A program made the translations under genes and the position numbers. Source: Myxococcales bacterium (GTDB lineage Bacteria; Myxococcota_A; Polyangia; Polyangiales; Polyangiaceae). Taken from it: a stretch of 43,069 nt of DNA. The stretch covers positions 1-43,069 of the forward strand of contig CAHJWM010000042.1 in assembly GCA_903642325.1 (NCBI GenBank), given 5' to 3'. Numbering within the stretch: the stretch's first letter is position 1; each line of letters opens with the position of its first letter. The notes below the pieces were generated by a model. That model was given only the letters and a program-made list of their open reading frames with translations. It had not been told where the DNA came from and did not search any database. Positions 33,807 through 36,216 of this stretch are shown here, piece by piece.

Positions 33807-34358
33807 ATGACCGAGCTTCAGAATATTCGAGTGCGGCGCATCGACGGCAGCCCGGGCTCATTGAAGGATTTCGAGGGCAGCGTGCTCTTGGTCGTGAACG
33901 TGGCTTCCCAATGCGGGCTCACCCCGCAATACGAGGGGCTCGAGCAACTTTATGCGAAATACAAGAGCCAAGGCTTACTCGTACTCGGTTTCCCTGCCAA
34001 CGATTTCGGCAGCCAGGAGCCGGGCAGCAATCAGGAGATTGCAGAGTTCTGCAGCAGCAAGTTCCACGTCGATTTTCCGATGTTCGAGAAGATCACGGTC
34101 AAAGGTCAGGCCCAGCACCCGCTCTATCGCGAGCTCATTGCGCAGCAACCCAGCGCGCAACAAAATGACGGCGGTACCTTGAAAGACAAATTGGCGGAGC
34201 ACGGCTTGGCTCCTCAGGCGCCCTCCGACGTGATGTGGAACTTCGAGAAGTTCCTCGTCGATCGTCAGGGCAACGTCACCGCTCGCTTCGCTCCCGACGT
34301 CACGCCGGAAAACCCAGTCCTCGTCGCGGCGATCGAAAGCACGCTCGCCCAGCGCTGA
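33807..34358 (+). CDS. Glutathione peroxidase family, Cys type
   Basis: A 183-residue peroxidase that reduces hydrogen or lipid peroxides, usually with thioredoxin as donor in Cys-type bacterial members. The peroxidatic Cys lies in VNVASQCGLTPQYEGLEQLY; the tetrad partners are Gln in GFPANDFGSQEPG, and Trp and Asn in DVMWNFEKFLVD. The family motif LVLGFPANDF is exact. There is no signal peptide. ATG 33807 follows GGAAAGG. It is 31 bases after bfr, so it is probably in the same transcript, coupling iron storage to peroxide defence. The donor is not decidable from sequence. Confidence 0.93.
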   Translation: MTELQNIRVRRIDGSPGSLKDFEGSVLLVVNVASQCGLTPQYEGLEQLYAKYKSQGLLVLGFPANDFGSQEPGSNQEIAEFCSSKFHVDFPMFEKITVKGQAQHPLYRELIAQQPSAQQNDGGTLKDKLAEHGLAPQAPSDVMWNFEKFLVDRQGNVTARFAPDVTPENPVLVAAIESTLAQR

Positions 34359-34380: not shown

Positions 34381-34605
34381 CTACTTCAGGCGCCCATCCA
34401 GCGCGACGGCCGCATTTGCGGTCATGGTGGCTTCGCGCAACAGGCGGAGCGCAGCCGCTTGATCGTCGGACGGCGGCGTGTGCTTCAAGATCACGGTCGC
34501 GAACGTTTTCGCGGCCTCGTGAATGGCGTCGTAGTGAACGAGCTTCTCGGCGGTGGGCGCATGGTGCTCAAACACGTAGCTCGGATCAAAATCGTATTGG
34601 CTCAT
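34381..34605 (-). CDS. Acb2/Tad1-like small protein (cyclic-nucleotide-sponge fold)
   Basis: A 74-residue protein starting at ATG 34605 with AGGAG upstream. Its sequence follows the pattern of the Acb2/Tad1 hairpin family: VFEHHAPTAEKLVHYDAIHE, then AAKTFATVILKHTPPSDD and the hallmark AALRLLREATMTANAAVAL (compare the family ending P-x-S-x-x-x-x-x-A-L-x-x-L-x-E-A-x-M-x-A-N-A-x-(I/V)-A). Phage Tad1 and Acb2 proteins bind and sequester cyclic oligonucleotide or gcADPR signals of Thoeris and CBASS defence. Here no phage genes surround it; it converges on the glutathione peroxidase gene. The family call rests on pattern memory and needs a profile search. Its function in the host is open. Confidence 0.65.
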   Translation of the reverse strand: MSQYDFDPSYVFEHHAPTAEKLVHYDAIHEAAKTFATVILKHTPPSDDQAAALRLLREATMTANAAVALDGRLK

Positions 34606-34715
34606 CGGTCTCTCTCCTGCGCTAGTCACCGCATCTTAACAGATGCGTGCGCGACAGGGCACGGCGACTCGGACATGTACGCGAAACGGCGCGCCCACGC
34701 CGCGTGGCACGGCCG

Positions 34716-35939
34716 TCACAGCGTCGACGAGAATTTGCCGGCCGCAACGAGCAAGTACAGCACGCGCAACGTGCCCTGGAAGTAGGGCGCGTCGTTCAAC
34801 TTGGCGCTCCGCCAAGCGTTCATGTAGCCATCGAACTTTCCTTGCTCGTAGCCGCCGGCCAAGGCAAAGGCGCCGACGAAAGCGCTGTTTCGTGCTTGGG
34901 CGGCGTTGGGCAAGCCGCCGTTTTCATCGACCCAGCTGGAGATGTTTTGCATGAAGGTCTTGGCTCGCGTATCCCCACTCCAACCGTAGTCGACCGCGAC
35001 CCGGAAGGGAGCTCGGCAAGCGTCGTAGCTGTACTCGGACCCGTTGTCGCTGCCGTCAGGCCCGCTCCAGTCCGGAACCAGATTGGCCATACGCGCCTGA
35101 TAGATGGCGTAGAGCTGATACGAGCCGTCGGCCAGCGCGGTCCAAGTGCCGGCCTGGGTCGTGAAGTAGTGAGCGAAGACCTTGTAATAGCCCGGCGCGA
35201 AATAGGAGGGGTTGATGCGCTGATCTCCGAGAGCGCTGCAGCCGCCGAAGGCGTCGCTCGGCCGCAGCACTTTGCGACCGCTGCACATGTCGGATTCGAG
35301 CCGAGCGATTTTACCGGCCAACGCCTCGGCCTTCGCCAAAAATCCACTGGTTGGCCAATGCGCCGCCGCCTGCACCAGAGCCATGGCCGTGTCGAGGTCC
35401 GCGTCCGTGGCCGAGCCTGCTCCATTGTTGCCCGGCGCTTCACATATCGAGGTCGTCGCGTTCATCAGGCCGTTGTCATCGAGATGATCCTGATAATAAG
35501 TCCATAAGCCGTCGAACAGAGCTTGGTCGGACATGGCCGCAGACAGCAACATGCCGTAGCCGATGCCTTCCGAAACGACGCCTCCGTCTTTCACCACGAC
35601 CCAGGATCCGTTCGGGCAGGCCCCGGTGTGAGCCGCTTTCCAAGATGCATATTCGGTCTTCAACTGCTCGTCGGTGATCGTCGCTGAGCGCGCGCTGTTC
35701 CAGGTGGAGGGCAGCTTCAAGGCGGCAGGGCCCATTCTGTTTTCGACACCGGCGGCGCCTCCTTCCCCAAAGCTTTCGCCTGGGCCCGACGCGTCAGGCT
35801 CGCCGCCTTTAGAGCTCGTTGCTCTACCCTGCGCGCCGCCGCCGGCGGCTCGCGCCGCCTCCGAACCGGGGGAGCCTCCGCAAGCGACGGAGAATAACGC
35901 ACCAATAAGCACAGACCGCAGACGCAAGCAAAGTGTCAT
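34716..35939 (-). CDS. Glycoside hydrolase family 8 lipoprotein (endoglucanase-like)
   Basis: A 407-residue secreted enzyme. A signal peptide ends LFSVACGG, then a Gly/Ser linker (~25-70) leads to a GH8 (alpha/alpha)6 barrel. Catalytic acid Glu lies in VSEGIGYGMLLSAAM (~120), ATDADLDTAMALVQAA (~178) is the GH8 signature, and EYSYDACRAPFRVAVDYGW carries the Asp base region. GH8 members cleave beta-1,4-glucan, chitosan or xylan; cellulase or xylanase cannot be separated by eye. There are no bcs genes nearby, so an extracellular degradative role is more likely than cellulose synthesis. ATG 35939 is chosen; ATG 35984 is also possible. Confidence 0.92.
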   Translation of the reverse strand: MTLCLRLRSVLIGALFSVACGGSPGSEAARAAGGGAQGRATSSKGGEPDASGPGESFGEGGAAGVENRMGPAALKLPSTWNSARSATITDEQLKTEYASWKAAHTGACPNGSWVVVKDGGVVSEGIGYGMLLSAAMSDQALFDGLWTYYQDHLDDNGLMNATTSICEAPGNNGAGSATDADLDTAMALVQAAAHWPTSGFLAKAEALAGKIARLESDMCSGRKVLRPSDAFGGCSALGDQRINPSYFAPGYYKVFAHYFTTQAGTWTALADGSYQLYAIYQARMANLVPDWSGPDGSDNGSEYSYDACRAPFRVAVDYGWSGDTRAKTFMQNISSWVDENGGLPNAAQARNSAFVGAFALAGGYEQGKFDGYMNAWRSAKLNDAPYFQGTLRVLYLLVAAGKFSSTL

Positions 35940-36216
35940 CGAAGCTATGTCATTACTCTGGCGCCAGATGTCCTTACTCGCCATGCCCAATCGCCCGGGC
36001 AACAAGCGACGCCAAGAACAACCGCAAACTATCGTACCGTTAGCGTATATGGCGAAAGTCGCGAGCCCTGATACCTGACGCGCAGGTGCCCGCCCCGGGA
36101 TCTCGCGGCCGACGATGGCGCAATTGGGCGTTCTTGGAAACCTTCTAGCGCGGGCAGTTGAGCCCCGTTATCGACCTCTCTGACGGGTCAACCGGGCCGG
36201 AGATCCGGGCCGCCCA

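Follow-up and report, generated by a model that had tools for sequence, protein, structure and literature searches.

An Acb2/Tad1-hairpin gene in the chromosomes of Polyangiaceae-type myxobacteria

The acb2-like gene described here lies in the chromosome of a soil myxobacterium and encodes a 74-residue protein of the Acb2/Tad1 hairpin family. Its host copies form one clade, evolve under purifying selection and carry clade-specific histidines at two known ligand positions. The best explanation, to which we would give about an even chance, is that of a domesticated phage-type Acb2-hairpin gene, maintained by selection, with a remodelled pocket, whose product likely assembles into an Acb2-like oligomer and, by binding, buffers or senses a small nucleotide-type ligand of the host. 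Sponge proteins have been described as phage weapons that soak up bacterial alarm molecules. If this explanation is true, a selected host sponge with a coordinated change of the ligand site would mean that domestication of sponges is possible, and would hint at a nucleotide signal worth controlling in myxobacteria. Neither a host-encoded Acb2 lineage nor a mention of Acb2 together with myxobacteria was found in the literature searched, with most subscription papers outside it.

The gene, its product and its neighbours

The window, that is, the whole analysed stretch of 43,069 nucleotides, contains the following features.

33807..34358, plus strand: glutathione peroxidase, convergent neighbour, 22 bp between the stops (Pfam GSHPx, 5.5e-38)
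34381..34605, minus strand: acb2-like gene, 74-aa protein of the Acb2/Tad1 hairpin family (PF24729), host clade (translation, Pfam, orthologue alignment, AF2 model)
34519..34521, minus strand: codon of His29, at the position of Lys23 of T4 Vs.4, a cGAMP contact (residue comparison, Vs.4 mapping; PMC10097602)
34552..34590, minus strand: codons 6–18 (F6-x-P8-x-Y10-V-F-x-H14-H15...T18), N-terminal signature of the host clade, including H14 (residue comparison, Vs.4 mapping)
34606..34620, minus strand: ribosome-binding-site-like stretch GCAGGAGAGAGACCG ahead of the acb2-like ATG (sequence reading)
34716..36005, minus strand: GH8 glycosyl hydrolase, upstream of the acb2-like gene on the same strand, 110 bp gap (Pfam Glyco_hydro_8, 1.3e-37)

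The acb2-like frame is read from the minus strand, from the ATG at 34605 to the stop codon at 34381–34383, and its translation is MSQYDFDPSYVFEHHAPTAEKLVHYDAIHEAAKTFATVILKHTPPSDDQAAALRLLREATMTANAAVALDGRLK. Upstream of the ATG there is a ribosome-site-like AGGAGAG, and the GC3 value, 0.76, is similar to that of the adjoining window genes. Eleven orthologues, each from another assembly, are 57–72% identical to the window protein, hence the frame is not a chance one.

When the protein was compared with Pfam by hmmscan, the sole family matched was PF24729, Acb2_Tad1_hairpin (E=2.6e-9), with the score of 37.6 bits against the curated cut-off of 27 bits. Three more host copies scanned against this model were over the cut-off too. 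We assign the protein to the Acb2/Tad1 hairpin family on the basis of the Pfam match. The preliminary description had drawn the family link from a residue pattern and had named a search with the family profile as the way to check it, and this search bears the link out. Among the PHROGs, the matches are phrog_31113 (1.5e-12) and phrog_1454 (1.2e-11), neither having a known function. A PDB search with the single window sequence gave no match, and NCBIfam has no model matching the protein.

The neighbours in the window, as named by Pfam, encode a ferritin-like protein, glutathione peroxidase, the GH8 enzyme and polyphosphate kinase. Ten window ORFs, a subset of those in these 43 kb, were compared with Pfam, and none of them was recognised as a phage structural or integrase gene. 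The gpx/acb2-like/GH8 order was considered as a conserved unit and rejected, being absent both from the orthologue loci and from the gpx loci of the genus.

Host copies and their viral relatives

The host genome (G000) has a single acb2-like copy. Six out of eight genomes of its genus carry the gene, and two lack it. In the survey of the family, matches were found in 13 of 108 genomes and in 5 of 48 genera; twelve copies are intact and one, in G433, is broken. The broken copy (L047, 988–1136), from a Labilithrix-labelled MAG, belongs to the host clade and could be a pseudogene or result from misassembly. When 84,980 species genomes (one per species, possibly without the window's own genome) were scanned with patterns specific to the host clade, twelve loci were obtained, namely eleven known intact copies together with the broken copy. 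All of these are in myxobacterial MAGs, labelled Polyangiaceae, Myxococcales, Sorangium, Byssovorax or Labilithrix, and all named carriers found are MAGs. With the PF24729 model, a draw of 379 genomes from the phylum had few further matches exceeding the cut-off (L014–L017), and those that were read are situated in phage-like stretches, L015 adjoining a capsid-like gene. Weak matches in long frames of other genomes of the phylum (L018–L022, E about 1e-3) are below the cut-off and were taken as chance.

The contigs with host copies are up to 440 kb long and contain housekeeping genes such as those of EF-G and phosphoglycerate kinase, both named by sequence reading. The neighbours of the copies encode RNase HI, EF-G, an SDR dehydrogenase, acyl-CoA-binding protein, a Suv3-type helicase, a metal-transporting ATPase and a Ser/Thr kinase. 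Neither phage genes next to the host copies nor defence genes adjoining the twelve were noticed. The non-phage flanks in the window and in the orthologue loci agree with the preliminary description, which had placed the gene in the chromosome outside any phage.

RNase HI is divergent from the acb2-like gene in L008 (2000–2816), L011 (8520–9335) and L012 (9202–10016). An annotated RNase H is also situated two genes from the homologue in phage Tunturi_1 (L029), its sequence looking like a different type. In L009 (7807–10029) and L010 (10526–12741) the acb2-like gene lies between genes for an SDR-type dehydrogenase and acyl-CoA-binding protein, on the same strand and a few bases apart, in an operon-like arrangement. 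As conserved operon partners, RNase HI, found in three genomes, and the dehydrogenase with acyl-CoA-binding protein, found in two, were rejected; none is general.

For the residue comparison, the twelve host copies were set against 99 viral homologues, 98 from IMG/VR and one from the cultured phage Tunturi_1; one viral row (L171), which did not align, was omitted. In the unrooted tree, drawn at midpoint, the host copies form one clade with support 100/98, nested among homologues from tailed phages. The nearest relatives of the clade are viral L048 and L049, followed by L095 and L050; the latter has a terminase gene near its homologue. After ten columns separating hosts from viruses were dropped, with 41 viral rows, the support of host monophyly was 97/63. 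The inner branching order should be regarded as soft, given the short gene and the unrooted tree. The gene tree does not group the window's genus as a single clade, which leaves room for transfer between hosts; moreover, the patchy distribution and the gene order differing between genera make later host-to-host transfer possible.

The nested position of the host copies, in a tree that is unrooted, suggests capture from a tailed phage. The opposite direction, that is, a family of cellular origin taken from bacteria by phages, would draw on the root not being known in a midpoint drawing. However, the host clade is limited to one bacterial family and is situated inside the viral diversity, while elsewhere in the phylum the strong matches are those in phage-like stretches, one of them beside the capsid-like gene, and we regard a cellular origin as very improbable.

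Phage proteins of phrog_1454 and phrog_31113 (for example, those on the IMG/VR contigs of L048, L095 and L050, and gp101 of Tunturiibacter phage Tunturi_1) are the closest relatives, up to 65% identical. They have an F-x-Y-H-x-P motif and align with the host copies nearly gap-free, but differ in having Tyr at position 14 and Arg at position 29 and in lacking the FDPxYV start; they have no annotated function.

The dN/dS ratios (Nei–Gojobori) in seven pairs of host copies are 0.06–0.30, several of them being rough because of high dS, and are equal to 0.06 and 0.10 in the two closest pairs. The host clade is under purifying selection. A fossil, that is, a prophage remnant on its way to loss, would be consistent with the nesting of the clade in viral diversity, the broken copy in G433 and the patchy presence, with two genomes of the same genus devoid of the gene. 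However, such a fossil is scarcely credible given the twelve intact frames with these dN/dS ratios, the ribosome-site-like stretches preceding most starts of the host copies, GC3 like that of host genes and no other phage genes seen nearby. On the other hand, domestication, also raised in the preliminary description, has held up, with twelve intact copies, non-phage neighbours and a clade nested in the viral tree.

Predicted structure and ligand-site residues

The AF2 model, based on 86 sequences, has the mean pLDDT of 93.9 and pTM of 0.78. The predicted shape is all-helical, with a short N-terminal helix (8–11) and then two long helices (19–42 and 47–68) forming a hairpin. This succession of one short and two long helices is the one described for the Acb2 protomer (PMC12043709). 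Foldseek alone, applied to the model, produced no significant match. In the VIA-align ranking, T4 Vs.4 (7uq2) is the first, with Z of 6.9 over 66 residues and rmsd of 3.7, and Acb2 8h2x is the third, with Z of 6.5, these being the two best structures from the family; however, unrelated helical chains have similar Z, 5–6.6, and scores of this size are within the range of unrelated helical bundles.

The Acb2 proteins T4 Vs.4 (7uq2) and that of a Pseudomonas phage (8h2x, 8h39) share with the window protein PF24729, the short N-terminal helix followed by the hairpin, and the interface alanines. On the other hand, Vs.4 has a long insert between the hairpin helices, not present in the 74-aa host protein; the identity to the Acb2 structures is about 24% over the structural alignment, the window protein is encoded by the host, and the cGAMP contacts differ. 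The hairpin domain is also shared, at the Pfam level, with Tad1 (7uav, 7uaw, 8kbf), the anti-Thoeris sponge, the structural match being weak (Z 4–4.5). In Tad1 the hairpin is preceded by an N-terminal beta-sheet domain (PMC12043709), which is missing from the all-helical window protein. The best match of the family profiles among solved structures is Acb2 homolog 43 (9ptq; E=2.7e-5 and 0.002), which has F-D-T-H in place of F-x-Y-H of the phage motif; therefore, varied pocket residues are already present in the family. No paper on this homolog was found in a literature search that mostly stopped short of subscription papers.

In T4 Vs.4, cGAMP is stacked on Y8 and F82 and forms polar contacts with Y8, H11, K23 and R79, and the hexamer interface includes L29, A66, A73 and A77 (PMC10097602). 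The Y8A and F82C substitutions of Vs.4 also abolish Panoptes activation (PMC12657218). According to the MAFFT alignment, and likewise to hmmsearch and hhalign in the parts that these two align, the contacts Y8, H11, K23, R79 and F82 correspond to H14, P17, H29, A65 and A68 of the window protein. The host clade at large has H14, P/A17, H29, A/S65 and A/S68, the cGAMP-contact residues of Vs.4 not being kept. The equivalents of R79 and F82 are already missing from the viral F-x-Y-H-x-P group, hence their loss is not peculiar to the host clade. By its contact residues, the window protein does not qualify as an Acb2 sensu stricto.

Position 14 (Tyr8 of Vs.4) is His in all twelve host copies, while the viral proteins have mostly Tyr (95 of 99; His in three, Phe in one). 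Position 29 (Lys23 of Vs.4) is again His in 12/12 host copies versus Arg in 99/99 viral ones. F6, P8, Y10 and H14 are present in every host copy and absent or rare in the 99 viral proteins, and the FDPxYVF start is a host-clade addition relative to the phage proteins. Since two contact positions are occupied by an invariant His in the host clade, the ligand site seems to be changed rather than decayed; invariance of the changed positions at identity down to 57% suggests a new constraint, not decay. The preliminary description had named missing conservation of the ligand site in orthologues as evidence against its reading, and this is partly the case: the contacts with cGAMP are lost, but H14 and H29 are invariant. 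With the viral Tyr/Arg contrasting with the host His/His, a protein of 74 residues is enough to test the question.

The interface residues L29, A66, A73 and A77 of Vs.4 correspond, in the MAFFT alignment, to F35, A52, A59 and A63. A63 is conserved in all twelve host copies and A59 in eleven; as judged by these residues, the positions are compatible with a hexamer interface of the Vs.4 type. Acb2 itself is a homohexamer that takes up three cyclic dinucleotides.

The same histidines might instead belong to a non-nucleotide binder, with H14, H15 and H29 forming a metal or acidic-ligand site, or with the same hairpin serving as a protein–protein adaptor. This would account for the invariant His at the three positions, the new F6/P8/Y10 segment, likewise invariant throughout the host copies, and the lost cGAMP contacts. 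However, H15 cannot count as a new ligand, being present in 97 of the 99 viral proteins as well, and the host loci share no conserved metal-linked neighbour. We consider a binder of this kind possible but doubtful.

Signal systems of the carriers and candidate ligands

The host genome, 99% complete, has no match to the SMODS CD-NTase, SAVED or TIR_2 families; CD-NTases and TIRs of families other than SMODS and TIR_2 are possible there. Cas10 was rejected, as the sole Cas10-palm match is a GGDEF protein below the cut-off. All 16 host GGDEF domains keep the Asp of the c-di-GMP type at the last position of NDxxGxxxGD, which we take to be the position marking the Hypr cGAMP enzymes, where these differ from Asp. 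Hence a Hypr GGDEF protein was rejected as a host source of cGAMP. Buffering of the host's own CBASS or Thoeris signals, as proposed in the preliminary description, finds little in its favour here. Nor is there a general link across the carriers, a survey for co-occurrence with CBASS or Thoeris having been proposed there as a check: TIR_2 proteins are found in 8/12 of them, SMODS in 1/12 and SAVED in 2/12, one of the two being the SMODS carrier. DAC, the c-di-AMP cyclase, is present in all twelve carriers, which is not discriminating, because DAC genes are widespread.

An anti-defence sponge in the old sense would be encoded by the host or by a mobile element and would silence the signals of CBASS, Thoeris or type III CRISPR, for instance as a protection against self-killing. 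Such a role agrees with membership in the same family as Acb2 and Tad1, with TIR_2 in two thirds of the carriers, and with SMODS and SAVED in one carrier and a SAVED match in another. However, the absence of SMODS, SAVED and TIR_2 matches from the host genome, where the Cas10-palm match is the sub-cut-off GGDEF protein, the replaced cGAMP-contact residues and the defence genes not noticed beside the twelve copies make it distinctly unlikely.

For a domesticated gene, the following course may be proposed. A phage-type Acb2-hairpin gene would have entered the ancestor of some Polyangiaceae-type myxobacteria and become a stable chromosomal gene, retained by purifying selection, with its ligand pocket remodelled. 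The protein would form a two-helix protomer and, most likely, an Acb2-like oligomer, and a small nucleotide-type ligand would be bound in the inter-subunit pocket, His14 and His29 replacing the Tyr and the Lys/Arg that hold cGAMP. Stoichiometric binding would then buffer or sense a host metabolite or a housekeeping cyclic nucleotide; the target ligand would not be an alarm signal of CBASS or Thoeris, and c-di-AMP might be one available candidate. Here we infer the Acb2-like oligomer, the ligand class and the buffering role. A more specific version is offered tentatively, short of an even chance: a phage sponge turned into a standing signalling part of Polyangiaceae-type myxobacteria, where an oligomer with a two-His pocket of new specificity buffers or senses a housekeeping nucleotide messenger. 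Since the host clade departs from Vs.4 at the cGAMP contacts, the ability to bind cyclic dinucleotides could also have been lost altogether.

The F-x-Y-H-x-P phage proteins (phrog_1454 and phrog_31113; loci L048–L189) likely constitute a broad, apparently untested group of sponges. The group is large in IMG/VR, where 207 relatives matched one pattern and 80 were kept.
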